Shown in pieces: positions 6,845 to 35,926 of a stretch of DNA of 64,000 nucleotides. The DNA comes from Desulfamplus sp. GTDB lineage: Bacteria; Desulfobacterota; Desulfobacteria; Desulfobacterales; Desulfobacteraceae. Numbering within the stretch: the stretch's first letter is position 1; each line of letters begins with the position of its first letter. Under the pieces are notes generated by a model that ran no database searches, had not been told where the DNA came from, and saw nothing but the letters and a program-made list of their open reading frames with translations. The DNA lies in contig JADFZJ010000009.1 of assembly GCA_015232555.1 (NCBI GenBank), positions 1 to 64,000 of the forward strand, written 5' to 3'. The translations under genes were made by a program, and so were the position numbers.

Positions 6845-6921
6845 CTTGTATCCTCCTTAATTTCTATGAATGATAGTTCTTTAGTTTGGGCGATCTGATT
6901 ATATTTTCAGTAATACTGCTT

Positions 6922-6954
6922 ATTATAAATATAGTTCCGAACGAACGCTCAGTC
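6922..6954 (-). promoter_or_regulatory. Putative promoter with TetR-type operator
   Basis: On the minus strand a perfect TATAAT (-10 candidate, 6922-6927) lies downstream of an imperfect palindrome, GACTGA GCGT TCGTTC, at 6939-6954. GACTGA-N4-TCRGTC-like sites are typical of TetR/FadR-type regulators in front of acyl-CoA catabolic genes. The palindrome overlaps the expected -35 position, which fits repression. The half-sites match each other at 4 of 6 positions. Leader to the dehydrogenase ATG is about 75 nt. Motif recognition is by eye. Confidence 0.45.
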
Positions 6955-7049
6955 TGTTTAAAACAGATATATATTTGTTGAATTGTTTTTGTCAACAATT
7001 TTTCAAAAATTACTCTAATTTTTTATTTTGGGCTTGATTTGATGGGGAA

Positions 7050-8540
7050 TTACAAACTTATCACATTCAACCTTTCTAACACATCTTTGAAACTCTGCAA
7101 ACCAGCCTCTAAATTCTCAATTATCTCTTCTGCAATCTCATCAGGTTCAGGCAGATTGTCAAGATCAGCAAGGCTTTTATCCTTGAGCCAAAAAATATCC
7201 AAATTTGTTTTGTCTCTGCTGATAATTTCACTGTATGAGAACTTTCGCCATCTATCTTCAGGGTTTGGCTCTCTGCCGGATTGCCGTTCGTGGCGATTTG
7301 ACGGATTGTAGCAGGCTATAAAATCTGCCAAATCCTCTTTTTTTAATGGTCGTTTTTTTAGAGTATGGTGGATGTTGGTGCGATAATCGTAAATCCAGAC
7401 CTCTTTTGTCCAAGGGTCTTTGCTTGCTGGTTTGTTATCGAAAAAAAGCACATTTGCCTTAACACCCTGAGCGTAAAATATACCAGTCGGTAATCGAAGA
7501 ATTGTGTGCAGATCAGTTGTCTGCATAAGTTTTGTCCTTACAATTTCGCCTGCTCCACCCTCAAACAGCACATTATCAGGCACAACCACAGCAGCCTTTC
7601 CAGTAGTTTTGAGCATGGTGCGAATATGCTGGACAAAATTTAACTGCTTGTTTGATGTGGTTGTCCAGAAATCTTGACGGTTATAGACAAAATCCTCTTT
7701 TTCTTCTTCACCTTTATCGTTGGTGATGGTGGTAGAGCTTTTTTTCCCAAACGGCGGATTTGCAAGCACGTAGTCATAACGATTTCCACTGTCAGCAATC
7801 AGCGAGTCATTTGGAGATATCGGTACCTCTCCGTCAATTTCGCCTATGTTGTGTAAAAACATATTCATCAAACACAACCGCCGTGCACTTGCAACAATCT
7901 CATTACCTGCAAAGGTGTTGAATTTGAGGAGCTTCTTCTGCTCCTTGTCAAGCGGGTAGTTGTGTAAAAGATAATCATAAGCTGTCAGAAAAAAACCGCC
8001 AGTTCCGCACGCAGGATCAGCAATGGTTCTATCAGGTTCAGGACGGACACACTCCACCATAGCAAAAATCAAGGCACGCGGAGTAAAATATTGTCCTGCT
8101 CCAGACTTTGTATCTTCAGCATTTTTTTCAAGCAAACCTTCGTAAATATCACCTTTTACATCAGTGCCGAGCATTGTCCATCGCTCGCCGTTGATCATCT
8201 GGATAACCTTGTAGAGCATTGACGGATTCTGGATTTTGTTCTGAGATTTAACAAAAATCTGACCTAAAATCCCTTTTGCATTTGCAAGCTCTTTTAACAG
8301 CTCATTGTAATGGCTCTCAAGCTCTGCACCGCTTCGAGAGATAAGACTCTCCCAGCGGTATTTATCAGGTATGCCAAGATTTCGGTTATGAGGCGGAGTG
8401 CTGTATTCATCAGCCATTTTCAAGAAGATAAGATAGGTGAGCTGTTCAAGGTAATCACCGTAACTCACTCCGTCATCTCTTAAGGCATTGCAATAGCTCC
8501 ACACTTTTGAGACAATGGAGGAGGTGTTGTTGTCATTCAT
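7050..8540 (-). CDS. hsdM: Type I restriction-modification methyltransferase subunit HsdM
   Basis: A 496-residue N6-adenine DNA methyltransferase. Residues 1-130 form the HsdM N-terminal helical domain; SAM-binding motif I is ADPACGTGGFF at 174-184 and catalytic motif IV is NPPF at 261-264. The C-terminal region (EDRWRKFSYSEIISRDKTNLD) is typical of HsdM. It would form an M2S1 complex with HsdS to methylate host DNA and, with HsdR, to restrict foreign DNA. It lies at the far downstream end of the locus, about 1.8 kb from hsdS, with five open frames between, an order unlike the usual hsdM-hsdS adjacency. Length and motifs indicate an intact gene. Confidence 0.95.
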   Translation of the reverse strand: MNDNNTSSIVSKVWSYCNALRDDGVSYGDYLEQLTYLIFLKMADEYSTPPHNRNLGIPDKYRWESLISRSGAELESHYNELLKELANAKGILGQIFVKSQNKIQNPSMLYKVIQMINGERWTMLGTDVKGDIYEGLLEKNAEDTKSGAGQYFTPRALIFAMVECVRPEPDRTIADPACGTGGFFLTAYDYLLHNYPLDKEQKKLLKFNTFAGNEIVASARRLCLMNMFLHNIGEIDGEVPISPNDSLIADSGNRYDYVLANPPFGKKSSTTITNDKGEEEKEDFVYNRQDFWTTTSNKQLNFVQHIRTMLKTTGKAAVVVPDNVLFEGGAGEIVRTKLMQTTDLHTILRLPTGIFYAQGVKANVLFFDNKPASKDPWTKEVWIYDYRTNIHHTLKKRPLKKEDLADFIACYNPSNRHERQSGREPNPEDRWRKFSYSEIISRDKTNLDIFWLKDKSLADLDNLPEPDEIAEEIIENLEAGLQSFKDVLERLNVISL

Positions 8541-8600
8541 TTCGTGTTTTTTATCTCGCTAATGTTACGTCAATATTTAGAAGTCGGATTTTATATCAGT

Positions 8601-8631
8601 AGTATGGATAGAAAAATGTTCTATCCATACT
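8601..8631. terminator. Strong hairpin between repeat protein gene and hsdM
   Basis: An 11-12 bp perfect stem (AGTATGGATAGA / TCTATCCATACT) with a short A-rich loop lies about 24 bp after the Ala/Pro-rich gene stop and about 60 bp before the hsdM start. Flanking CAGTAG/CTACTG extends the pairing. It could attenuate transcription into hsdM or act as a processing site. There is no clear T-run on the minus strand. Confidence 0.45.
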
Positions 8632-8654
8632 AAAACTACTGAACACATCTTTTT

Positions 8655-9059
8655 TTATTTCCCATCTTCGAGTTTACGAACGTCTTTGTTACCTTGCCAA
8701 ATCTCAAATGCTATTACACCTCCTAATGCTACAATGCCGAAGAACATCGGAGAAAACAGAAAACCTTTCAAAGCAGCAGCCATTCCTGTTGCTGACGTTG
8801 CTTTACCTATTGTCGCGGCTTTAGCTGCTGGAACAGTTACAGCCGTTGCTATCTTAGCTGCTGGAACTACTGCTGTAGCTGGAATCGTTGGAGCTGCTGC
8901 AACTGCTGCTGCTTTGGCTGCTGGAATTGCGGCTGTCGTTGGAGCTGCTGCAACTGTTGCTGCTTTGGCTGCTGGAATTGCGGCTGTCGTTGGAGCTACT
9001 GCAACTGTTGCTGCTTTGGCTGCTGGAATTGCTGATGTTACAACGGATTCTTCAATCAT
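8655..9059 (-). CDS. Ala/Pro-rich tandem-repeat protein with one membrane helix
   Basis: A 134-residue protein I do not recognise. Residues 9-65 are near-perfect 17-residue repeats built on AIPAAKAATVAxAPTTA (51-nt units in DNA, about three copies), followed by degenerate PAAK units to about residue 85. Residues about 95-120 hold a hydrophobic helix (GFLFSPMFFGIVALGGVIAF), and the tail is charged (GNKDVRKLEDGK). The layout suggests a long flexible Ala/Pro arm ending in a membrane anchor. AAAAAGGAGATTAAC before the ATG is a strong ribosome-binding site, so the gene is probably expressed. It lies inside the type I restriction locus between an unknown gene and hsdM. The repeats also keep an antisense frame open, which is taken as a by-product. 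Confidence 0.7.
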   Translation of the reverse strand: MIEESVVTSAIPAAKAATVAVAPTTAAIPAAKAATVAAAPTTAAIPAAKAAAVAAAPTIPATAVVPAAKIATAVTVPAAKAATIGKATSATGMAAALKGFLFSPMFFGIVALGGVIAFEIWQGNKDVRKLEDGK

Positions 9060-9160
9060 GTTAATCTCCTTTTTGTTATCCTGATTTAGTTAATTTTCAT
9101 AGGTTGACTAAAAAATATTCAACTTCCATCTTTAAATTGTGACATAACAGTTATATTCAT

Positions 9161-9544
9161 TTAAATTCCCCCTATTACTGATGCCACCAATACACGATAC
9201 TCCTCACCAGCATCCTCTATTCTGGCATTTACAATCTGAATATTAACATCGGGGTATAAAGTTTCTTTCTGTTCTATTAACAACCTTATATCCCCTTCGT
9301 GAGCTTTTGCTGTCTCCTCATCAAAATTGTTTATTGTTTTAAATTCTTCAATATATTGTTTGATTGTGGGTTCTCTATTTATAAAAGGCAAACAAGAGGT
9401 ATTCCATGCTACACAAGCAGAACGGAGCAAATTTTCTTTTTCTTCTATAGTTGTTCCTATATCAATATATCCTTCGGCAACATTTAACAACATTGCCGAT
9501 ATTTTCTCCCTCTCAGGTCTTTTTAGATTCTTTTTCTTTTTCAT
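9161..9544 (-). CDS. Hypothetical protein in restriction locus
   Basis: A 127-residue soluble protein with no family I can name. The first 15 residues are very basic (KKKKNLKRPEREK), the rest predicted mostly helical with acidic patches (EEFKTINNFDEETAKAHEGD) and a hydrophobic C-terminal strand RVLVASVIGGI. AAAGGAGT before the ATG gives a good start. Just upstream lies a 38-bp duplicate of the hsdS 3' coding region, in another frame, so this gene sits at a recombination junction. It is downstream of vapC and upstream of the repeat protein, on the same strand. Function unknown; accessory cargo of the locus is the most that can be said. Confidence 0.65.
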   Translation of the reverse strand: MKKKKNLKRPEREKISAMLLNVAEGYIDIGTTIEEKENLLRSACVAWNTSCLPFINREPTIKQYIEEFKTINNFDEETAKAHEGDIRLLIEQKETLYPDVNIQIVNARIEDAGEEYRVLVASVIGGI

Positions 9545-9562
9545 ATTTTACTCCTTTTGCCC

Positions 9563-9600
9563 TTATCCTCTCCAACAACACGCTCGCGGGTTCATCGTTT
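9563..9600. repeat. Direct repeat copy 1: duplicated hsdS 3' segment
   Basis: A 38-bp segment identical at 36 of 38 positions to 10340-10377, where it encodes part of the hsdS C-terminus (NDEPASVLLERI). Here it is outside any intact hsdS and reads, on the minus strand, INDEPASVLLERIRA before running into the 127-residue gene in another frame. The two copies are direct repeats flanking the vapBC pair. Confidence 0.85.
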
Positions 9601-9614
9601 ATTTTAATTCAGAC

Positions 9615-10016
9615 TTACAATTTTATAAGCTCAAACAAACTAAATTTCGAGGCTTTTTTGTCAAATGTAAGAACAGCTTGACAGCCGTTTGTCTTAGCTG
9701 AATGTGCAATAAGCAGATCAGAAAGATCGTATTTATTACCCTGTGCAGAGTCTATAAATTGCTGCAAAGTTAATCGGCATTCAAATTTCAAAACAGGCAT
9801 CAATAATAGATCGTTTATACAGTCTAAAATCTCAAATCTTCCAATATCATAGACAGCTTCTAAAACCCAAATTACTTCTAAAACTACAAGTAACGGCACA
9901 AATAACCTTGTATGTTCTGATTCAGCAGTTTGAAAAACTTCATAAACTCTCTTTGCTTGAAGCTCATCATCTTTAGTTAACAAACGAATTAAAATATTTG
10001 TATCAAGAGCCTTCAT
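9615..10016 (-). CDS. VapC-type PIN domain toxin
   Basis: A 133-residue PIN-domain ribonuclease. The four acidic metal-binding residues are visible: Asp in LDTNIL near residue 5, Glu in VVLEVIW near 47, Asp in YDLSDLLIA near 98-101 and Asp in TFDKKA near 119. It should cleave a structured RNA target when not held by VapB. It overlaps the upstream antitoxin gene by 14 nt. The pair is bounded by direct repeats of hsdS sequence, so it appears to be an insertion into the restriction operon. The length is standard and the gene looks intact. Confidence 0.9.
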   Translation of the reverse strand: MKALDTNILIRLLTKDDELQAKRVYEVFQTAESEHTRLFVPLLVVLEVIWVLEAVYDIGRFEILDCINDLLLMPVLKFECRLTLQQFIDSAQGNKYDLSDLLIAHSAKTNGCQAVLTFDKKASKFSLFELIKL

Positions 10017-10275
10017 TTTTAAACTGTTGCCTCATTCTATTTCTAATTGCATCATCTATCTCTTCAATAGATACTGATTTTCTGTCAGGTTTATGAAGTT
10101 TGCCAAACACATCATCTACTGTTTTAAAAATTGGTTTTGCAATAGGTCTTATTACAGCCTCCATTTTATCAGTTATAATAATCTCAATTTTATCTCCGCT
10201 ATTCAATTGCAGCGATTCTCTTATATTTTTCGGAATAGTAATTTGCCCTTTATTTGTAATGGTTGCTAAAGCCAT
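10003..10275 (-). CDS. VapB-type AbrB-family antitoxin
   Basis: A 90-residue antitoxin with an N-terminal SpoVT/AbrB domain (MALATITNKGQITIPKNIRE) and a C-terminal toxin-binding arm containing KPDRKSVSIEEIDDAI. The ATG at 10275 follows AAGGAGAT with correct spacing and is preferred to a start 12 codons upstream that would overlap the hsdS 3' end. It is translationally coupled to vapC. AbrB-type antitoxins usually repress their own promoter; here the region just upstream is the hsdS coding end, so a separate promoter would lie inside hsdS. Confidence 0.88.
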   Translation of the reverse strand: MALATITNKGQITIPKNIRESLQLNSGDKIEIIITDKMEAVIRPIAKPIFKTVDDVFGKLHKPDRKSVSIEEIDDAIRNRMRQQFKNEGS

Positions 10276-10307
10276 GATTAATCTCCTTATAGTTAATAGA
10301 AAAAGAT

Positions 10308-11822
10308 TCAATTACAACCTGCTCGTGCTTTTTCCGCCTTTATCCTCTCCAACAACACGCTCGCTGGTTCATCATTTGGGTCTTGTGGGACTAACTGACC
10401 TGAAAAGGCTTTCTTTAAGATGGATTGTTTAAGTGTGGCTGATTGTGTCAATGCTAATTCTATATCATTATCAAGTTTATCAATCACGGAAAGACATGAA
10501 TCTATTTGAGAAATGATTTCAATTTGTTCTGTTTTTGAAAGTAATGGAACTGGAAAATTACTTAATACGGTTTTGTTTATTGATGCTAAGTTAGTTGTTT
10601 GCTTACCTTCTGCATCAAAATATTGTTGACCAAAAGAATTACCCCAATGAGAAATCAACTTGGAAAATGCTTCTGATTCTAAATAAGGAGTAGCTCTAAA
10701 TACATGATTTTGAGTTATACAAGGTATTATTTGTGATTCCCAAATCCAACCCCTACCGAGCTTATCCCTGTCTCCGCCTTCATTGAATAATATATCCCAT
10801 TGTTTTAATTCTAATTTTTTTAATTGACAGCGTTCAATCTGCATGGTTTTTATCTCGTCTAAAACCAGTTTGCCTCTTTGCACATTTGCTACTCTCAAAT
10901 AACTCACTTCTATTGGGTCGCCCAATTTTTTTGATTTACTGAGTGCCTGACCAGAGCCGATTTCAGCAACTTCGGATAACCTTACATATAGCCAATCTTG
11001 GGGTAAGTTGAGCAAACCATTTAATTCTTCAGTTTTAATTAAAGAAGCACTATTCAATCTAAAAGGCTTACTCGGCTTTTTCCCCTTCTTTCCTTCCGAT
11101 TCCCACAGCTTAACCGCAGATTCCCACTCCTCAAGCTGCTGCTGATAGCGTGATTCTCTTGCCTGTTTTATCTGTTCTAAAAGCTCGTCAGCGGGGATAA
11201 CCTTATCTGGATTCTCTTTTCTCCATTGTTCCGTGAGTTTGCCTTCAAATGCGTGTTTCAGCAAAGATTGACGATACAATATAAGCAATTCGTTTGCCTT
11301 TTGCAAGGATTCAACGCCTTTGTCGATTTCGGAAAATAGCTCCTCAATTTTCGTGACGATTCGGTGTTGTTCGTTGAGAGGTGGGAGGTTAAAAGACAAG
11401 CGTTCAATATATTGCTTACTTATTGCACTAAATGTTGATCCTGTGCCTTTAGATGATAGTTGACTTTCAATACATCTAAACAGCCAGAACACAAAATTAT
11501 TAGGTATTTTTCCTAACGGATGAATTGCACATAATCCACGTCCAATACAACATTTTTCAAATGCCATATTTGTAGGTCCAACTGGTGCACGGACAGATAA
11601 TAAAGTCGCTCCTTTTCTGGCAATCTTTACGGGCTTGGAGCAATATTTGACTGCTATTGGAAATTTTTTATCAAATTCAGCTTTTCCCTGAAAAAAGGGT
11701 AGCCCCTCTTTTTTATTATTATATGTTTCAGACGGCGGAGACTGCCCCATTACAATATCTGTGAAATCAGGTAAATTCACACGAACCCAACCTTCAGGTA
11801 ATAGCATTTTTTCATTATCCAT
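10308..11822 (-). CDS. hsdS: Type I restriction-modification specificity subunit HsdS
   Basis: The DNA-recognition subunit, about 504 residues from the preferred ATG at 11822 (MDNEKMLLPEGW), which has AAGGTG upstream; longer readings start at 11840 or 11876. Two target-recognition domains are visible, each preceded by a LPxxW(V/L) start and followed by a conserved helix: the first ends with LNEQHRIVTKIEELFSEID, the second with SKTEQIEIISQIDSCLSVID. Between them lies LTEQWRKENPD. The C-terminus NDEPASVLLERIKAEKA is the part duplicated at 9563-9600. Two full domains imply a bipartite asymmetric recognition sequence. The start overlaps or abuts the upstream 194-residue gene, so they are co-transcribed. 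Intact by length. Confidence 0.93.
   Translation of the reverse strand: MDNEKMLLPEGWVRVNLPDFTDIVMGQSPPSETYNNKKEGLPFFQGKAEFDKKFPIAVKYCSKPVKIARKGATLLSVRAPVGPTNMAFEKCCIGRGLCAIHPLGKIPNNFVFWLFRCIESQLSSKGTGSTFSAISKQYIERLSFNLPPLNEQHRIVTKIEELFSEIDKGVESLQKANELLILYRQSLLKHAFEGKLTEQWRKENPDKVIPADELLEQIKQARESRYQQQLEEWESAVKLWESEGKKGKKPSKPFRLNSASLIKTEELNGLLNLPQDWLYVRLSEVAEIGSGQALSKSKKLGDPIEVSYLRVANVQRGKLVLDEIKTMQIERCQLKKLELKQWDILFNEGGDRDKLGRGWIWESQIIPCITQNHVFRATPYLESEAFSKLISHWGNSFGQQYFDAEGKQTTNLASINKTVLSNFPVPLLSKTEQIEIISQIDSCLSVIDKLDNDIELALTQSATLKQSILKKAFSGQLVPQDPNDEPASVLLERIKAEKARAGCN
10340..10377. repeat. Direct repeat copy 2, within hsdS
   Basis: The parental copy of the 38-bp repeat, lying in the last codons of hsdS. 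It differs from the copy at 9563-9600 at two positions. The repeats bracket about 740 bp that hold vapB and vapC. Confidence 0.85.
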
Positions 11823-11842
11823 TAACCACCACACCTTCATAT

Positions 11843-12424
11843 TCAATAACACGATGACCACATTTCTTTCTGCCAATCACGATAAACGGATATTCCGATA
11901 CTAATAGATTCTAAATCTTTTGATAGTGCCTCTACATGTGTAGCTAAACGGCGAATGTTTATATGCAATACACCATCAAGGGTTTTATCTCCATTCTTGG
12001 TTGTTGGATAACGAAATGAAAAAGAATCAGGGTCAATTTGTGAAAATTCTCTTATTACGTGTTCAGCATATTTTAAGTCAGGAGATTCTTCTTCATTATC
12101 AAATGATTTCAGTATAATTTTTTTTGCTAAACACCATAAATCAAATATCTTATGGTGCTTTGGAAAATCATTTCCTTCTTCCAATAGGATTCGACCTTCT
12201 CTAATAATCTCTTTTAGCCTCAATTCTATGTATTGACGGTAAAGAAAAACGATTGGATATATCAGAGTATCTTGCTCATTTTCTGCCACAAGCACATATT
12301 CAACAAGCAGATCGCCTGCTTCTTTGTATCCTTTAGCGTATAAATGAATAGGATCATCTGAGAAATTTAAACAAGCATTTGCTTTCCAATCATGATCACA
12401 ACAAAAAACAGGTTCTATTTCCAT
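11843..12424 (-). CDS. Hypothetical helical protein, possibly HEPN-like
   Basis: A protein of about 193 residues starting at ATG 12424 (a GTG lies one codon earlier). It is predicted to be mostly helical. The segment YPIVFLYRQYIELRLKEII followed by HHKIFDLW and, later, a FRYP motif resembles uncharacterised proteins that I associate with HEPN-type helical bundles, but the R-x4-6-H ribonuclease signature is not clear. It overlaps the hsdS frame by a few bases and follows the truncated DUF262 gene. Its position between hsdR-side and hsdS-side genes suggests an accessory or regulatory part of the restriction locus, such as a small toxin; that is conjecture. Confidence 0.6.
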   Translation of the reverse strand: MEIEPVFCCDHDWKANACLNFSDDPIHLYAKGYKEAGDLLVEYVLVAENEQDTLIYPIVFLYRQYIELRLKEIIREGRILLEEGNDFPKHHKIFDLWCLAKKIILKSFDNEEESPDLKYAEHVIREFSQIDPDSFSFRYPTTKNGDKTLDGVLHINIRRLATHVEALSKDLESISIGISVYRDWQKEMWSSCY

Positions 12425-12551
12425 CACGCAACCAACGCCTCATTTAATTTAACGCCCATAGCTTTTTAGCCCACGGCTGTAATTTATCTTACTCAATACT
12501 CCAAATTATCTTAATTTTGCTTTATTTTGAAAATCAGACATAACAATCTAC

Positions 12552-13079
12552 TCATTTATTAACATCATTATCTGTTTTATATCTTTCAAAAAGCTCTTGT
12601 TTGATTCTGCTATTGCTGGAAGCCCGTATTATTTCCACTCTGCAAACAGCTCTTTTTAAACTAATTTTATATTTAGAAGGCAGAGTATCAATATCAAACC
12701 CATTAAGATTTTTAATCAATCCGCCAGCTTCTAATTTCCATCTGTTCTCTGTGGTAGAATCAAATTCTCCAAAAAAACTGATAAAAGTTGCAACTCTTTG
12801 TAATCCATCAACTAACTCCCAAATTCCCTCTTTATCCTCTGCCACAAAAATTGGAGGAATTGGAATTGATAGGAGTATTGACTCTATAAGTGCTGTTTTT
12901 TGTTTAGAAGTCCACCTAAAAAGGCGTTGATACTCTGGGCGGATTATTAATTCTCCATTTTTGTAAAGATTAATCAACTCTCCAAATGAAATATCCATTC
13001 TATCAGTAGAAAGTTTACCTCTCTCCTCAGAAATCTCTTTTTCTAATGCATCTTCTTTATCTTTTAAATCATTATCCAT
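12552..13079 (-). pseudogene. DUF262 (GmrSD N-domain) protein, C-terminally truncated
   Basis: A 175-residue open frame with the ParB/sulfiredoxin-like DUF262 domain: IIRPEYQRLFRWTSKQKTAL, then SIPIPPIFVAEDKEG and WELVDGLQRVATF, with the (D)GQQR-type motif as DGLQR. Full DUF262 proteins run to 300-700 residues, often with a DUF1524 HNH nuclease domain. Here the frame stops at FERYKTDNDVNK, where FxRLNxGG would be expected, and no continuation is seen in any frame in the 120 bp that follow. AGGAG before the ATG is good, so a short product may still be made. DUF262 proteins act in defence against modified phage DNA (GmrSD, BrxU). It is best treated as a truncated gene. Confidence 0.7.
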
Positions 13080-13140
13080 AACTAACTACTCCTATTAAAA
13101 AACACTCTGCTTTAATCGTATTTATTTCACCCTCTTTACA

Positions 13141-15990
13141 TCACGCCACCAGCACCTCATTCATCTCATTTATGATTAAATCCATACGCTCTCCAAACAA
13201 CTGATACATCTTGCCCAGCCCTCCATGTGAGTCAAACGGTGCCATATCCAAATCATCACGCTCAAAGTGAAACGAACTGCTGATATGGTCAGAGATCATT
13301 CTCAACCAGTTCATCTGCTCTTCATTGAATTTCTCTCCAGCACCTGCGTGAACCTTGAAAATCCACTCCTGAAAGTTTTTTCTAACAGTGCTGTGATATG
13401 GTGTAAGCTCTTGATCAAGACCTGTAACCCGCCGAATCAGTGCAACCAATGCTGTAAGTTCGTTCAGCGGTGATTCTTTGATTTCATCAAGAGCCTGATA
13501 AGCTTTCCAGACATTCAACGGTGCAAGGCGTGGTTTGTCTGATTTTAGTTTATCCATAACATCTCTTATCATCTTAAAAGTTATATCTCTTCTTCTGTGC
13601 GGCTGATCGTAGTAGATGGTCAAAGCCTCTAATTCATCTTTGTGCTGTTCAAAATAATCCTTCAACTCCTGAATCAGGCTGATTGCGTTCTCCTTGGAAT
13701 CCTGCTGCCACTCTGATTTTATTATCTCATCAAGATTTTCATGGTCAATTGTCTGCTCTTTTTCTCGTCTGATGGTGTCTAAAAGTTCGACAATCTCACC
13801 TGTAAAGAGATCGCCGGCTTCGACACAAAGCTCTGACTGTGCTGTTTGTCTTACTTCGTCAGTAATATCTGAGCCTGATTGTTCTGCCAACTTTGATGCC
13901 CGTTCTTCAACATAATCAGCATCAATGCAGTTGAGCAGAGTTTTAGTAATGTCGGTCAGGGGTTTTCCTGTGGTCTCCCTGATTTTGTCCTGCTCTTTTT
14001 GAGTCAACTGCTTGTCCATTCGTGCTAATCTTCCGGCTAAAGATGAGATTGCATCTTCGTCACCCGCACCCATCATAATTCCCATCATCAGGTCTTTGAG
14101 TGGGACTGAGGGCTTTGTAATCAACGGCTGACTTGATGTTTTCAGGGATTTGGTTACGCCGATTGCATCAACAATAACGTAGTGGGTTTTGGCGTATCGT
14201 GCTGATGGGGTAACTCGTTTGAGATCATCAAACCCGAGGGTGCGTGTTCCGCGTCCTTTCATCTGTTCAAAGTAGTTACGGCTTTTGACATCACGCATGA
14301 ATAAGAGACACTCAAGCGGTTTAACATCAGTGCCAGTTGCAATCATATCAACAGTTACAGCAATTCTTGGATAAAATTCATTGCGGAAACTTGAAAGTAG
14401 AGTGTCAGGGTCTTCGCCTTTTTGAACAAGTTTGCCCTGTTTATCAACAATATCTTGTGAAGCCTTGTAGGTGATTTTTTTGCAAAATTGGTTGCTCTCT
14501 CCAAATTCTTCACGCACAGTACGGATAATGTCGTCAGCGTGGCTGTCTGTCTTTGCAAAAACCAGTGTTTTGGGGATTTCTGTTCTCTCTGGAAATATTA
14601 TCGGCAGCTTCTCTTTAAATTCACGGATAACAGTGCGAATTTGATCAGGATTTACAATATCCCTGTCAAGCTGACGTGCGGAATACTCCTCATCTTCATC
14701 CTGCTCTTCCCAGCGTCTTTTGCGGGTCATTCGCTCCCGTTTTTCGACCAGCTTGCCTTTTTCGATTGTTGCACCTTTTTCTGTTATCAAAGTTCCGATA
14801 AGGTAAATCTCATTGCCCACATTCACGCCATCAGCAACAGCTTTTTCATGGCTGTAGTCTGACACCACATTCTTCTTGAAAAAGCCGTATGTGCGGTTGT
14901 CAGGAGTTGCCGTAAGTCCTATAAGAAAAGCGTCAAAGTAATCAAGCACCTGCTGCCAGAGATTGTAGATGGAGCGGTGGCATTCGTCTATAAAGATCAC
15001 GTCAAAAAAATCAGGGGTTATTTTGTCGTTGTAAACCACAGGAAGTGGCTCTTTTCTTGAGATATATTTTTCAGCAGGGTTTATCTCTTCCTGAGATTCG
15101 TCCAGTTCTTCGCCTTTCAGGATTGAGTAGAGACGCTGAATTGTGCAAACGACCACCTGACTTGTTTTTGCAATATTTGGGCTTGTTGGACGCTGGACAG
15201 TGTAAAGCTCTGTAAATTTTCGGTTATCGTCAAACGGAGTATATGCCATCATCTCCTGTTCTGCCTGCTTGCCAAGATTTTTAGTATCAACAAGAAACAG
15301 CACTCTTCTTGCTCGTGCGTATTTTAGCAGACGATAGATGGATGTAATGGCTGTGTAGGTCTTGCCTGCACCTGTTGCCATCTGGATTAGTGCCTTTGGT
15401 CTGCCCTGTTTTAACGAAGCCTCTAAATTGGTGATAGCTATCTGTTGACACTCTCGCAGATTTAGTTGAGTTGCTGCCATTGTTTGAGGGGAAAGGTTTT
15501 CAGGAACAACTTTAATGGGATTAAACTCTGGTATATCTTGAATACGTGAGCGAAGAGAGGGAATTTTAATTTTTCGTGCAAGCTCTTCAGGTCGGTGAAA
15601 GGTAAATATTTCTCTGGCACGGGGTTTTGGGTCTCTGCGATCAGTGAACCATGTTACAACGCCTGTGCTTTCATACAGAAATGGTAATGGTTTTGGATTG
15701 TTTATCCATTTGAGTTTTGCGTTGCTGTATCCTGTAGTCTGCTCTTCTACAGCATTCAGGTGAAAGCCTTCATCTGCCTTTTTAGCCTCAATCACGCCAA
15801 CTGGCTTTTTATCGACAAAGAGCATGTAGTCAGCAGGTCCAACATCAGTCTGATATTCTCGAACAGCAACGCCTCTTGATGCTGAAAAGTTGATTTTGTT
15901 CTTATGCTGCACCGTCCAGCCAGCTTGAACAAGGAGGTTGTCGATTTTGTCGCGGGCTTTCTGTTCTGGATTCTGGTTTGTAGGTGGCAT
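13141..15990 (-). CDS. hsdR: Type I restriction enzyme endonuclease/translocase subunit HsdR
   Basis: A 949-residue motor and nuclease subunit. The N-terminal nuclease domain shows GPADYMLF with Asp54 and VIEAKK with Glu68-Lys70 (PD-(D/E)XK). The superfamily 2 helicase follows: Walker A ATGAGKT at 205-211, DECH box near 337 (IFIDECHRS), LTATP near 360, then the second RecA domain with MKGRGTRTLGFDDL near 590. The C-terminal region of about 250 residues contacts HsdM/HsdS. It resembles EcoEI-type enzymes. It is the first gene of the locus in transcription order, preceded by a palindromic repeat at 16033-16109. All motifs are present, so it is probably active. Confidence 0.95.
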   Translation of the reverse strand: MPPTNQNPEQKARDKIDNLLVQAGWTVQHKNKINFSASRGVAVREYQTDVGPADYMLFVDKKPVGVIEAKKADEGFHLNAVEEQTTGYSNAKLKWINNPKPLPFLYESTGVVTWFTDRRDPKPRAREIFTFHRPEELARKIKIPSLRSRIQDIPEFNPIKVVPENLSPQTMAATQLNLRECQQIAITNLEASLKQGRPKALIQMATGAGKTYTAITSIYRLLKYARARRVLFLVDTKNLGKQAEQEMMAYTPFDDNRKFTELYTVQRPTSPNIAKTSQVVVCTIQRLYSILKGEELDESQEEINPAEKYISRKEPLPVVYNDKITPDFFDVIFIDECHRSIYNLWQQVLDYFDAFLIGLTATPDNRTYGFFKKNVVSDYSHEKAVADGVNVGNEIYLIGTLITEKGATIEKGKLVEKRERMTRKRRWEEQDEDEEYSARQLDRDIVNPDQIRTVIREFKEKLPIIFPERTEIPKTLVFAKTDSHADDIIRTVREEFGESNQFCKKITYKASQDIVDKQGKLVQKGEDPDTLLSSFRNEFYPRIAVTVDMIATGTDVKPLECLLFMRDVKSRNYFEQMKGRGTRTLGFDDLKRVTPSARYAKTHYVIVDAIGVTKSLKTSSQPLITKPSVPLKDLMMGIMMGAGDEDAISSLAGRLARMDKQLTQKEQDKIRETTGKPLTDITKTLLNCIDADYVEERASKLAEQSGSDITDEVRQTAQSELCVEAGDLFTGEIVELLDTIRREKEQTIDHENLDEIIKSEWQQDSKENAISLIQELKDYFEQHKDELEALTIYYDQPHRRRDITFKMIRDVMDKLKSDKPRLAPLNVWKAYQALDEIKESPLNELTALVALIRRVTGLDQELTPYHSTVRKNFQEWIFKVHAGAGEKFNEEQMNWLRMISDHISSSFHFERDDLDMAPFDSHGGLGKMYQLFGERMDLIINEMNEVLVA

Positions 15991-16032
15991 ATTCTTTCAA
16001 GTGGACTCTTTTATAATTATACTGTTCAAGGT

Positions 16033-16109
16033 CATAAATTGAGTTTTATCTAAACTGTAGAGACGCACGGCTATGCGTCTCTACTTAGAATAAAAAAGTT
16101 CAATTCATG
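16033..16109. repeat. 77-bp imperfect palindrome, MITE/REP-like
   Basis: The centre is a perfect 11-bp stem, GTAGAGACGCA / TGCGTCTCTAC, with loop CGGCTA (16057-16084). Outer arms, starting CATAAATTGAGTTTTAT on the left, pair imperfectly with TAAAAAAGTTCAATTCATG on the right, so the whole 77 bp forms one inverted repeat. No coding capacity. It separates hsdR from the P-type ATPase gene. The core AAACTGTAGAGA is seen again in the hairpin at 40329-40375. Confidence 0.7.
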
Positions 16110-16160
16110 CCAGCTTAGAGTATAGTTGAGGCTGTTAAGTCATGGAATTACAAACGCTTA

Positions 16161-18929
16161 TCAACTCTTGTGTAATATGTTGTGCATGATAAATTTTCTC
16201 AAGAGATCAAGAGGGATAATCAGAAGTGCAAGTCCGATTATCAGAAGCCACTCATTGAAGACAAGTCCGTAAGTTCTTAGTATAACTCCGCCAAGGTAGG
16301 TCATTATAACCTGTATTACAAGAATGGAGGACATAACCTTTACAAACCCCATATTCTGGGTAATGTGCTCAAACAGTTTCATGGTCTCTGTTCTTGCGTT
16401 CAATCCGTTCAATATGCTTATAAATACAAAGAACGAGAAAAATCCAGTGTATAGGTACATATCGTGCTTTCCATCAGGTCCAAATCGGAAAAAGTCTGCT
16501 ATCCAGCCTGATGTTAGGAAAAATATACTCAATGAAGATATAAAGATACCGCCCATCAAAATAGAACTCCACATGTCAGGAGAGACAATCTTTTCGTCAC
16601 GCCGTTTAGGAGGCTCGTTCATATATCGTCTGAGGGCTGGCTCTCCTCCAAATGCAAGAGCTGCAAGCGTATCCATTACAAGGTTGACCCAGAGCATCTG
16701 TGTAATTGTAAGAGGTTGAACAAGTCCAATTAGAGGACCTATAAACGAGATAAGAACGGCACTGACATTTATCGACAACTGGAATATAATAAACTTTCGG
16801 ATACTCTTGAAAATTGTTCGTCCGTATAGAACAGCCTTTTCAATTGAGATAAAATTATCGTCAAGAATAACAATATCACCAGCCTCTTTGGCAACCTCTG
16901 TACCACTGCCCATTGCAAAACCTACATCAGATTTTTTGAGTGCTGGTGCGTCATTTACGCCGTCACCTGTCATTCCAACAACAAGGTTAAGCTCTTGAGC
17001 AACTTTTACTAAACGGCTCTTATCTGTGGGCAACGCCCTTGCAATAACCCTGACTTTAGGAAGTAGTTTTTTAAGCTCATCATCTGATATTGTTTGAAGC
17101 TCCTCAGATGTCAAAATAACATCATCATCGCTTTGCATAAGACCAGACTCCTTTGCAATTGCAATAGCTGTCTCTCGTCTGTCTCCTGTAATCATAACAA
17201 CCTGAATACCAGCACCTTGAACCTCTTTTATTGCAGATACAGCTTCTGGTCTGACATCATCACGTATTCCGACAATACCAACAAGAGTCATATTGGAAAA
17301 GGTTTTATTCTCTTCAAGAGGCTCGTTAGATGTAGCAAGGGCAATAACTCTTATTGCTCTTGCTGCAAGCTCATTCATGGTGTTATCAAGTTTAGCTATA
17401 TCAGATTTGGCAAGCTCTCGTATCTCGCCGTTGTGACCATAATATCGAGTGCATTTTTCGATAATTTTTTCAGGAGCACCTTTAATCAGGGTTACGTTCT
17501 CAGACTCTTGAGCGTCATTTTGAGATTTAATGTAAGATGGCAAAGCATTTGTGCCAGTAGAACGAACTTCAGTTGCAGAATATTTTTTATCGCTGCTAAA
17601 AGGGAGGGTAAACACCTTCTCCATCCTATAATCAACGCTTTCGCCCATATTGATAAATCCAACTAATGCCCTTTCAGTTGCATTGCCTCCAATAATCTTT
17701 GTTACACCACCCTCGTCAGAAAAAAGTGCATTGGTATTATGGGCAATTGAGATATGTAGAAGCTCTTTGAGTTCTGCCATAATCTCATCAAATTTGTTAA
17801 ACGGCTGATTTTCACCACTTATAAATGTGATAACCTCAAGCTGACCTTTGGTGATTGTGCCTGTTTTGTCAGAAAATAGAATGTTCAAACTTCCTGAGGT
17901 CTCAATTCCCACAAGTTTTCTCACCAAAATATTGTCGTTGAGCATCTTTCTCATGTTAAGAGATAGAACCATTGCAATCATCATCGGGAGCCCCTCTGGC
18001 ACTGCAACAACAATAATAATTACAGCAAGAATTACAGCATTTACAATATCGTTGACAGGATTTTGCCAAACTCCAACATACTCAATGATTCTTGCCATAT
18101 TAAAGCCATTTTCAAGGATAATTTTCTTGAAGATAAATGCTACTGCAATCAAGGCACCTCCGATATATCCAAATAGACTTATGGAATCTGCAAGATCACT
18201 AAGTTTTACCTTTAACGGGCTTTCTCGGTCTTCGGTCTGCATCTCAAGAGCAAGTTTGCCGTATTGGGAGGTGTCCCCAACCCTTTTGGCAACCATTACA
18301 GCTTCACCTGAACAGACAACAGTTCCGCGAAAGAGTTTGTGCGGATCAAGAAAATCGATCTCTTTGTCAAAATCAGGATCATAGTCGGTAATCTGCTTGT
18401 CGCTCTTATAAAAAGGGGAATCAGTAGAGGGTTTTAACTTCTTTGCCTCTGCTGACTCTCCATTCAAGGTCGCCTGATCTACCTTCATATTACCGCTGTA
18501 GATAATGCCATCTGCTGGAATTTTATCTCCAGACTGTAGCAATATAAAATCGCCCACAACAATATCGTCAATATATATTTCAGTGACGTTTCCATCTCTG
18601 AACACCTTGCACTTGATTTTTGACGCATCTTCCTGCAACTGCTGAAAGGTTGCCTCATTTTTGTGTTCTGACCATGTGCCTACAAGGGTTGCAAGCAGAA
18701 CAGCAACCGCAATTCCAAAAGATTCATACCAGTGAGCCTTGCCAAGAAAGACAAAAACAACATTAATCGCAAGTGCTACTAAAAGTATTTTGATAATTGG
18801 ATCATCAAAATTTCCTTTATACTTGTCCCAGAAACTCTCAACTTCCTGTTTTGTCAACTGGTTTGAACCGTAGCTCTCTCTTGATTCAAGAACAGCCGAT
18901 GATGATAATCCTAAAATTTTTTTATCCAT
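16161..18929 (-). CDS. P-type cation ATPase, Ca2+-type (P2)
   Basis: A 922-residue P2-type ATPase expected to move Ca2+ (or another divalent cation) out across the inner membrane. Seen: PEGLP at 311-315 in M4, the phosphorylated Asp354 in SDKTGTIT, a KGAPE nucleotide-domain motif, MITGDRRETA and the hinge GDGVNDAP. The four C-terminal membrane helices close the protein, as in plasma-membrane-type Ca pumps, which it resembles in the VVAVPEGLPMMIAMVLSLN stretch. The actuator-loop TGES reads NGES (156-159). No calmodulin-type tail is evident. It is monocistronic, with an upstream YdcZ-type gene ending beyond it. Substrate is inferred from family only. Confidence 0.9.
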   Translation of the reverse strand: MDKKILGLSSSAVLESRESYGSNQLTKQEVESFWDKYKGNFDDPIIKILLVALAINVVFVFLGKAHWYESFGIAVAVLLATLVGTWSEHKNEATFQQLQEDASKIKCKVFRDGNVTEIYIDDIVVGDFILLQSGDKIPADGIIYSGNMKVDQATLNGESAEAKKLKPSTDSPFYKSDKQITDYDPDFDKEIDFLDPHKLFRGTVVCSGEAVMVAKRVGDTSQYGKLALEMQTEDRESPLKVKLSDLADSISLFGYIGGALIAVAFIFKKIILENGFNMARIIEYVGVWQNPVNDIVNAVILAVIIIVVAVPEGLPMMIAMVLSLNMRKMLNDNILVRKLVGIETSGSLNILFSDKTGTITKGQLEVITFISGENQPFNKFDEIMAELKELLHISIAHNTNALFSDEGGVTKIIGGNATERALVGFINMGESVDYRMEKVFTLPFSSDKKYSATEVRSTGTNALPSYIKSQNDAQESENVTLIKGAPEKIIEKCTRYYGHNGEIRELAKSDIAKLDNTMNELAARAIRVIALATSNEPLEENKTFSNMTLVGIVGIRDDVRPEAVSAIKEVQGAGIQVVMITGDRRETAIAIAKESGLMQSDDDVILTSEELQTISDDELKKLLPKVRVIARALPTDKSRLVKVAQELNLVVGMTGDGVNDAPALKKSDVGFAMGSGTEVAKEAGDIVILDDNFISIEKAVLYGRTIFKSIRKFIIFQLSINVSAVLISFIGPLIGLVQPLTITQMLWVNLVMDTLAALAFGGEPALRRYMNEPPKRRDEKIVSPDMWSSILMGGIFISSLSIFFLTSGWIADFFRFGPDGKHDMYLYTGFFSFFVFISILNGLNARTETMKLFEHITQNMGFVKVMSSILVIQVIMTYLGGVILRTYGLVFNEWLLIIGLALLIIPLDLLRKFIMHNILHKS

Positions 18930-21344: not shown

Positions 21345-22148
21345 TTATTTTCTCCAAATATCTTTTGATGGTTCTAAAATCTGATATGTACTTTTAACCA
21401 TCTCATTTCCATATTTTCTCTCAAGCCTTCTTACTGTAAAGTGTCCCCTTGCCATATCCTGAAAATGATCAATAAACAGGGTATTTATGATAGCCCCTGC
21501 TGCTGCTCCAATTGCTGGAATAGCCTGAGAGACAACTTTTTCTGACACCTGAATGCTGAACCTTTCTGAAATCTGGATAATGAAACGCACAAGAGCAGGG
21601 CTGCCCTCTACCAACCCTTTTTCTGCAATATATTCAGTAGCTTTTGCCAATGAAGAGGCTAATGCCGCTCGTGCAGCAAAGTATGCAGATTCGTGATTAT
21701 CATCTATATCTGTTCTTCCGCCAAATGCAAACACCTCCATGCAGGCAAGCTGGGCTTCAGTTGATGTGATAAGCTCACCCTCACTTCTTGCAATATCTAC
21801 AATAGAGCGAAGCATTATTGTTGTTGATATTGGAAGTTCAATAGTAAGTCCAGCTAAACCAAAAAATCCGCCAACACCTCCTGTTACTCCGACAGCAATT
21901 TTATGCAGCATGTTAGAGGATTTTATACACGGTTGATTATTGAGAGTATTAACTGCTGTAGCAACTGCTTTAGAAAGGGCAGAATGGGTAATTACACCTA
22001 CCTTATCTTTCCAAGTTTCAGGCAGCATGGCAAAACTTTTTTCAATCGGAGTACCAAAGAAATCGGTCAGTTTCGCAGCAAATCCAGGATTTTCTAAAAG
22101 CCATTTGGCTTTTTCTAAATCACAAATATCATTAGAATCAAGAATCAT
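21345..22148 (-). CDS. EcsC family protein
   Basis: A 267-residue protein with the EcsC domain over most of its length. The Gly-rich hydrophobic core GGVGGFFGLAGLTIELPIST, the SEGELIT segment and the paired glycines near AIPAIGAAAGAIIN are typical. Function is unknown in general; EcsC was first named from an ABC-transporter operon in Bacillus, which makes its adjacency to a solute-binding protein worth noting, though EcsC-like proteins occur in many contexts. Two hydrophobic stretches suggest membrane association. Its stop lies one base from the start of the YejA-like gene, so the two are coupled. Confidence 0.82.
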   Translation of the reverse strand: MILDSNDICDLEKAKWLLENPGFAAKLTDFFGTPIEKSFAMLPETWKDKVGVITHSALSKAVATAVNTLNNQPCIKSSNMLHKIAVGVTGGVGGFFGLAGLTIELPISTTIMLRSIVDIARSEGELITSTEAQLACMEVFAFGGRTDIDDNHESAYFAARAALASSLAKATEYIAEKGLVEGSPALVRFIIQISERFSIQVSEKVVSQAIPAIGAAAGAIINTLFIDHFQDMARGHFTVRRLERKYGNEMVKSTYQILEPSKDIWRK

Positions 22149-34842: not shown

Positions 34843-35107
34843 AATTTACACCTGTTTACACCTGATTGTTCAGAAAACTCTTGTATATTCCAAAAACAAT
34901 ATTCAAAACTGGGGTAAAATAACAGCAATGAATCAAGTTATCAAGCCATTTTACACTATTAAAAAGGCTCTGTATGAGTCAAAACAGTTATAAATCAACT
35001 GATAAACTCATTGACAATAAATTAATTAAAAGCTAAAGTTTTTAATTAATTTATGTGAGCTAATGTTCACCCGTAAGAAATTCAAAAAAATCTTGAAAGG
35101 AGAACAG

Positions 35108-35926
35108 GTGAAAGAAGAAAAAATAAAAAAAGAGAATCTAACTCCCCTTAATTCAACAATCTCAAATCAACAGAATTCAACAAATGTAGAACAGAAAGTT
35201 GCAGCAACGGCAGATAAACAAAGTTCAACAAATGTAGAACAAAAAGTTGCAGCAACGGCAGATAAACAGAATTTAACAAATGTAGAACAGAAAGTTGTGG
35301 CAACGGCAGATAAACAGAATTCAACAAATATAGAACAAAAAGTTGCAGCAACGGCAGATAAACAGAATTTAACCATAAATCAACAAAAGGAGAACAAAGA
35401 AGAGATGAAAAATGAACAAAAAGCAGCCACGGATCAGACTGAAGCAGCTCCAGCCCCGATGACTACAAAAGAGAGATTAGCAGAAGCAAACCATATCATT
35501 AAAAACAGAATGATTGCTTCAGTTGGTGCAGGTCTTATTCCATTTCCAGTAGTAGATATTGTTGCATTGACTGGAATTCAACTGGATGCAGTCAGAGCAC
35601 TTTGTAACCTTTACAATGTTAAGTTTAGTAAAGATATGGGCAAAAGTGCTATAACCAGCCTAACTGGCGGTGTAGTTCCAGTAGCAATAGGTCCATGGGT
35701 TACATCTCTTGCAAAAACAATACCTGTTGTAGGACAGATTATGGGCACCATTTCCATGCCGATTATAGCTGGTGCTTCTACCTATGCTGTCGGTAAAGTA
35801 TTTATCCAGCACTTTGAGTCAGGCGGAACATTCCTAACATTTGACCCTGAGAAAGTTAAAGAATATTTTCAGGATGAGTTTGAGAAAGGTAAAGAATTTG
35901 CCAAGACAGAAGCAAAAGCAAGCTGA
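35108..35926 (+). CDS. DUF697 protein with N-terminal 16-residue repeats
   Basis: A protein of about 272 residues. The first part is a hydrophilic array of four to five repeats of QNSTNVEQKVAATADK (48-nt units) at 35170-35370. The second part (residues about 130-270) is a DUF697-type domain: RMIASVGAGLIPFPVVDIVALTGIQLDAVRALC is split here as ASVGAGLIPFPVVDIVAL and TGIQLDAVRALC, then a Gly-rich hydrophobic pair of helices. DUF697 domains accompany GTPases of the Era/dynamin type and associate with membranes. The GTG at 35108 is preferred over ATG 35063 because AAAGGAG lies five bases before it. A perfect 39-nt palindrome follows the stop. Function unknown. Confidence 0.75.
   Translation: MKEEKIKKENLTPLNSTISNQQNSTNVEQKVAATADKQSSTNVEQKVAATADKQNLTNVEQKVVATADKQNSTNIEQKVAATADKQNLTINQQKENKEEMKNEQKAATDQTEAAPAPMTTKERLAEANHIIKNRMIASVGAGLIPFPVVDIVALTGIQLDAVRALCNLYNVKFSKDMGKSAITSLTGGVVPVAIGPWVTSLAKTIPVVGQIMGTISMPIIAGASTYAVGKVFIQHFESGGTFLTFDPEKVKEYFQDEFEKGKEFAKTEAKAS
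35170..35370. repeat. 48-bp tandem repeats in the DUF697 gene
   Basis: Four full and one partial copy of a 48-nt unit, each encoding (N/S)(S/L)TN(V/I)EQKV(A/V)ATADKQ. Units are 90% or more identical, so the array is probably young and liable to change copy number by slippage. No spacers, so not CRISPR. Confidence 0.9.

Follow-up and report, generated by a model that had tools for sequence, protein, structure and literature searches.

The repeat-protein gene and its operon

The stretch of Desulfamplus DNA that we analysed (the window, 64,000 nucleotides) is part of an 84.6-kb contig. On its minus strand, a same-strand run comprises hsdR, a GmrSD_N gene, a gene for a 194-aa protein, hsdS, a MazE-type gene, a PIN gene, a gene for a 127-aa protein, the gene for a repeat protein, and hsdM. 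The earlier note had placed the repeat-protein gene inside a restriction operon, and this location was borne out by the hsdM, hsdS and hsdR genes that surround it on the same strand. The features discussed here are the following.

8655-9059 (-): gene for a 134-aa Ala/Pro/Lys repeat protein with a predicted C-terminal membrane helix (ORF, TRF, hydropathy, codon substitutions, AlphaFold, profile family)
9039-9059 (-): conserved N-terminus MIEESVV (alignment)
8885-9032 (-): array of a 51-bp, 17-aa unit (IPAAKAATVAAAPTTAA), three clear copies followed by one decayed copy (TRF, unit identity, shuffling)
8706-8762 (-): single hydrophobic helix, residues 100-118, followed by the family-conserved tail E-x-W-x-G-x-K-D (hydropathy, alignment, AlphaFold)
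9066-9071 (-): Shine-Dalgarno sequence AAGGAG (sequence, comparison with relatives)
8600-8632 (-): perfect 14-bp inverted repeat 3' of the stop codon (RNA folding, z = -4.19)
7050-8540 (-): hsdM of the host operon (ORF and profile match)
9161-15990 (-): remainder of the host operon, that is the 127-aa gene, the PIN and MazE-type pair, hsdS, the 194-aa gene, the short GmrSD_N protein and hsdR
10308-11876 (-): hsdS (ORF and profile match)
13141-15990 (-): hsdR (ORF and profile match)
21345-22148 (-): EcsC-family gene
35063-35926 (+): gene for a DUF697 protein with 48-bp (16-aa) repeats of its own at 35169-35373 (TRF, profile match)

The 127-aa (9161-9544) and 194-aa (11843-12427) products of the operon had no match in Pfam, PHROGs or PADLOC. 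The 175-aa product of 12552-13079 contains the GmrSD N-terminal domain only, and it also resembles NsnA of PADLOC.

The ORF at 8655-9059 starts with ATG and encodes 134 residues: the N-terminal peptide MIEESVV, an Ala-, Pro-, Thr- and Lys-rich linker of about 90 residues, the hydrophobic helix, and the tail EIWQGNKDVRKLEDGK. Residues 100-118 are the sole prominent hydrophobic segment (mean Kyte-Doolittle 2.15), and the tail, which is charged, has a net charge of 0. The anatomy given in the earlier note, a repeat linker followed by a membrane helix and a charged tail, was therefore right. AlphaFold predicted a helix from residue 104 to 133 (block pLDDT 77 for residues 101-110 and 88-93 beyond), and the pLDDT was below 50 across most of residues 12-87. 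The C-terminal helix is the only confident part, and the model is essentially this one helix. When the sequence was inspected, without a predictor, no signal peptide was apparent. Across the family described below, the 15 residues that precede the helix carry a mean net charge of about +2, and the residues that follow it about +1. We infer that the helix inserts into the membrane; the charges on either side do not decide its topology.

The 17-residue period is confined to the first part of the linker. At 8885-9032, TRF reported a period of 51, 2.9 copies and 97% matches. The first two units share 98% identity; the third is 86-88% identical to them, and the fourth 53-59%. None of 2000 codon shuffles of the repeat region reached the observed identity of 0.96 over 102 nt; the highest identity in these shuffles at any codon lag was 0.70, and among codon lags 10-29 lag 17 alone stands out. 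TRF, the unit identities and the codon shuffles thus confirm the three near-identical 51-bp units and decayed ones reported earlier.

The substitutions that separate the last 27 codons from those of a relative (L002) fall on codon positions 1, 2 and 3 as 9, 3 and 9. In the frame of an ORF on the opposite strand (8686-9084, +), the same substitutions fall as 3, 9 and 9 (conversion by hand). The first pattern fits coding on the minus strand, and the second does not fit coding by 8686-9084 (+).

The strong ribosome-binding site claimed for the gene is present as the AAGGAG at 9066-9071, and the 25 bases AGGAGATTAACATGATTGAAGAATC at this site are identical in two Desulfamplus relatives; the DNA farther upstream is unrelated. 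The inverted repeat at 8600-8632 is not among the entries of the terminator scan. Two relatives (L002 and L004) have a different stem-loop at the same place 3' of the gene (z about -4). A stable stem-loop thus lies 3' of all three homologous genes, and that of the window is unrelated in sequence to those of the relatives. These stem-loops could be terminators of this single gene. Rfam had no match within 6900-16200.

A family of small proteins in the Desulfobacterales

To find relatives, we ran the C-terminal profile search that the earlier note had proposed. At E 0.05, it had matches in 27 of the 389 genomes sampled from the order; 14 of these, with 16 loci, were kept after 12 weak genomes and G069 had been dropped. 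The 12 had E-values of 9e-4 to 0.044; on rescoring with profile A3 their loci (L050 to L061) reached at most 15.5 bits, five not being among the matches listed. Frames were read among the dropped loci for L080 (for G071), L060 and L054. The locus of G069 (L068) was dropped because it had scored via its own row in the first profile, A2; profiles built without it gave no match or E 0.96 or worse. It remains a row of alignment A6, the input of the AlphaFold job, in which the L065 row lacks the first Met and the L073 row starts one residue early. A second match in G221 (L079) was dropped after its frame was read. A second copy in G199 (L089, E about 1e-5) is a weak member outside the 16 loci, and L077 was accepted as a member for its likeness to L075. 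A draw of 395 genomes from across the phylum, which included some from the order, added no member: it returned the window's own genome and one chance match (G632), a stretch within an 868-aa frame, which was dropped.

Leave-one-out profiles (13 sets) recovered the left-out rows at E 2.3e-21 to 2.5e-9, except for L075 (7.3e-6) and L077 (not found at E under 1). The window was found at E = 3.7e-12 by profile A3 without its own row, and at E = 1.4e-7 when all four Desulfamplus rows were left out. The best non-member in any set scored 2.5e-6 (L089, a probable member) and the next 8.9e-5 (L063).

The C-terminal helix and a tail like E-x-W-x-G-x-K-D are present in the window protein and in the family of profile A3. 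At the other end, M-[IVL]-E begins the window protein and 7 of the 11 other supported members of A6 (L002, L004, L065, L067, L071, L073 and L075), so that the motif is frequent but not universal; distant members begin with MIEEKVI, MIEKAMV, MLEQAVI or MIENQVA. Complete members range from 57 to 199 aa. One NRPS-linked member is the identical protein in genomes of different families (L075 in G134 and L076 in G090), which reflects either a recent transfer or a binning mix-up.

No family model of Pfam, NCBIfam or PHROGs fits the 134-aa protein. The 13 members of A6 gave one match to family models, a repeat model at E = 0.025, and the best match of profile A3 to PDB sequences was at E 0.38. A tblastn search of plasmids and phages gave no match and viral contigs held no relative, so the idea of phage or plasmid cargo was dropped. 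Among the titles and abstract openings seen, we found none on this family. These results show an unnamed family of small proteins, each with one predicted C-terminal membrane helix, that was found only in Desulfobacterales in the sampling used here.

The linkers of this family differ in their repeats. There are three clear units in the window, three in G007 and four in G004. The tandem-repeat period is 51 bp here, 99 bp in L077, 105 bp in L089, 63 bp in L074 and 42 bp in L070; in L075, TRF found short repeats only. The simplest reading, made without a tree, is that the linker was lengthened independently in at least five lineages.

Could the repeats mark a contingency locus, in which slippage tunes the repeat number of a variable surface protein? 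The near-identity of the units within the genome, the differences in unit sequence and copy number between relatives, and the other repeats in other members would all suit this idea. However, all five periods are multiples of three, so that length, and not frame, would vary. The earlier note had offered an unrelated variable surface protein as one of its explanations. Its lack of relation to restriction stands, but exposure at the surface is not supported by the sequence features: no signal peptide is apparent and the charges around the helix are indecisive. We therefore consider a contingency locus unlikely.

Genomic neighbours of the family

The most frequent neighbour of the family is a DUF697 gene, and the association is significant. 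Such a gene lies 24-1185 bp away at 5 of the 16 loci (L065, L067, L069, L071 and L072). DUF697 occurs in 13 of the 15 searched genomes with 2 to 8 matches each, from which about 0.05 adjacent loci are expected (P about 9e-10 for independent placement within 2 kb). At the remaining 11 loci, including all four of Desulfamplus, there is no DUF697 gene within 2 kb, and G076 and G091 have the family and no DUF697. None of the searched neighbours was found at L066 or at three loci beside era (L082, L083 and L031). Near the DUF697-linked loci there is also a two-TM gene (L065, L067, L072), an SPFH gene (L069, L072) and a periplasmic-binding protein of one kind (L065, L069, L072). EcsC proteins accompany DUF697 at two related loci (L065, L072); ecsC matches at L067, L069 and L071 were not counted because the query contains the DUF697 domain.

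In the window, the nearest DUF697 gene is 26 kb from the repeat-protein gene and does not adjoin it. Like the repeat protein, its product has a repeat extension, here at the N-terminus, with 4.3 copies of the 48-bp (16-aa) unit. Its relatives in G007 and G004 are frames of 300 and 343 aa whose extensions are repetitive by eye. In G007 (and in G004 by likeness), the relative adjoins genes for acyl carrier protein, 3-hydroxyacyl-CoA dehydrogenase and acyl-CoA dehydrogenase. Just to the right of the window (L084:5054-7062, about 67.1-69.1 kb of contig C106) lie genes for an SPFH protein and a 56-aa two-TM protein. They are of the kind that accompanies DUF697 elsewhere, and they adjoin a 4'-phosphopantetheinyl transferase gene. 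The model of the DUF697 fold had a pLDDT of 79 and a best Foldseek E of 0.23. Its best VIA-align row was 6k1h_B (Z 7.5, rmsd 3.8, 116 aligned); helical bundles may commonly share such an arrangement. Among papers containing the word DUF697, no title or abstract opening that we saw dealt with its function, and a search for papers on EcsC together with SPFH returned none.

Several members of the family lie near assembly-line genes. An A-, C- or KS-type domain is found within 4.6 kb at L070, L072, L074, L075, L076 and L077, and a thioesterase within 0.5 kb at L071 and L073. The family gene lies between asparagine synthase and an NRPS at L070, before a PKS at L074, and between an NRPS and a KAS III gene at L075 and L076. 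At L077 the contig begins in the family gene and a KAS III gene follows; at L072 an adenylation-type gene is 3.5 kb away and is followed by an ABC-transporter protein. The window has no A, C or KS match within 12 kb of the repeat-protein gene, and G131 and G091 have the family and no condensation domain among the matches listed. A condensation domain lies within 10 kb at 4 of the 16 loci (P = 0.007 when the expectation is set at a generous upper bound; 0.04 for three). The least secure members account for three of these four (L075-L077), and the L076 protein is the same as that of L075. Thus, the assembly-line neighbourhood of the family is suggestive, and weaker than the link to DUF697.

DUF697 itself is found in similar company. 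At 5 of 10 further DUF697 loci (L120 to L129), PKS or NRPS modules lie within 5 kb. These five represent three settings: L122, L125 and L127, which are alike (L125 was counted by its likeness to L122), L124, and L129. A DUF481 protein occurs with DUF697 in the clusters of L127 and L129 (and of L122 and L125 by likeness). Weighing against this link, the condensation domains listed share a contig with few of the DUF697 matches (at least 7 of 55; the genome-wide search covered condensation domains). The presence of DUF697 genes in or beside PKS/NRPS clusters is a possible lead to the function of DUF697.

Conceivably, the family could act as a membrane-active peptide, or as an immunity partner produced together with the biosynthetic clusters nearby. 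The proteins are small, their C-terminus is hydrophobic, and several of their genes lie beside NRPS, PKS or thioesterase genes. However, the C-terminal helix and the E-x-W-x-G tail are conserved across families of the order, and there are loci without any biosynthetic neighbour. We regard this explanation as improbable.

A magnetosome membrane protein of magnetotactic Desulfobacterales is less probable still. Two magnetochrome matches lie on contig 55 (C55) of the window genome, one of them above the cut-off, so that this genome is probably that of a magnetotactic organism. Co-occurrence with magnetochrome (PF18509) did not support such a role: the window genome and four other family-positive genomes have a match (5 of 14), but the other 9 have none, and the family is missing from 11 of the 16 genomes with a magnetochrome match, some of the genomes being incomplete.

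The position of the gene differs among close relatives. Desulfamplus belongs to the Desulfobacterales in the NCBI taxonomy. The homologue is flanked by engB and era in G004 and G007; in G005, of the window's own genus, it lies before era on a contig that ends within the gene. The member on the record of Desulfamplus sp. nDH2bin3 (L031) equals the match on contig 15 of G005. In the window genome (G000), engB and era adjoin with no family gene between them. The family gene is also not at the engB-era site of G008, G009 and G001, the last of which has another small frame there; these three have no family match at E 0.05, G008 and G009 being incomplete (74% and 85%). The corresponding loci of G002, G003 and G006 were uninformative. 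Between the genes of the window, G007 and G004, similarity extends from the Shine-Dalgarno sequence to the stop codon only, and their flanks are unrelated. Because its relatives lie elsewhere, the gene in the type I restriction operon is best read as a relocated passenger, although either position may be the older.

The linkage check proposed in the earlier note, run within the flanks available, found no homologue linked to restriction genes. No hsdM, hsdR or hsdS match lies near the 15 other supported loci (with flanks that range from 0 to 10 kb on each side). Of 98 genomes, 16 contain an HsdM relative, the window's own among them. The other 17 hsdM match rows in the 98 relatives all lack the repeat-protein gene in the adjoining sequence, up to 1.5 kb of which was available. 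These rows represent 16 genes (two rows are pieces of one), and three have less than 250 bp upstream. Other genes fill the slot beside hsdM in the relatives, and no PADLOC defence model matched the 134-aa protein. Thus, although the gene has hsdM on one side and the remaining genes of a same-strand hsd operon on the other, an accessory subunit that would tether the HsdRMS complex to the membrane, in line with the tether suggested in the earlier note, is largely refuted on this linkage evidence and is the least probable of the explanations considered here.

A putative membrane-anchored tether

Based on these comparisons, we tentatively propose that the protein is a lineage-specific, membrane-anchored flexible tether that works with DUF697 proteins, perhaps around assembly lines, and that in the window it is a passenger in a restriction operon. 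We give this proposal a little less than an even chance. The N-terminal peptide is frequent, the spacer tolerates and gains length, and the anchor is constant, which together give the layout of a tether. The C-terminal helix would fix the protein in the membrane, probably alongside a DUF697 protein. The disordered linker would serve as an arm that carries the N-terminal peptide to a soluble partner, and this partner may be an assembly-line or related enzyme. Both the tether function and the partner are thus putative.

Two known designs resemble this one. Pyruvate dehydrogenase E2 has flexible linkers rich in Ala, Pro and Lys between its lipoyl domains. The linker of the repeat protein is similar in composition and predicted disorder, and would likewise serve as a length-adjustable arm. 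In contrast to E2, the repeat protein has no recognised catalytic or lipoyl domain and its arm ends in a membrane helix, and we claim no homology. Tail-anchored proteins are single-span membrane proteins anchored at their C-terminus. They share with the repeat protein a long soluble N-terminal part, a single helix near the C-terminus and no apparent signal peptide.

The recurrent company of the family or of DUF697 consists of DUF697 (PF05128), SPFH/Band 7 (PF01145), EcsC (PF12787) and DUF481 (PF04338). These are other families, and the small anchor protein matches none of them. A more speculative and, in our view, doubtful extension is that DUF697, together with SPFH, two-TM and EcsC proteins and the repeat-armed anchor, forms a scaffold that recruits NRPS and PKS lines to the inner membrane. 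How far the arm reaches would then depend on the number of repeats, and the gene of the anchor would be a free mobile unit in the genome.

In sum, the false lead of a membrane-tethered restriction complex is removed. In its place is an undescribed protein family, which within this sampling was confined to a single order. Its gene neighbours direct attention to DUF697 and to the assembly-line biosynthesis of sulfate reducers. DUF697 is a domain named for its unknown function. If the protein is indeed a tether, DUF697 would gain a testable role, and the family would provide a natural series of linker lengths, probably of independent origin.
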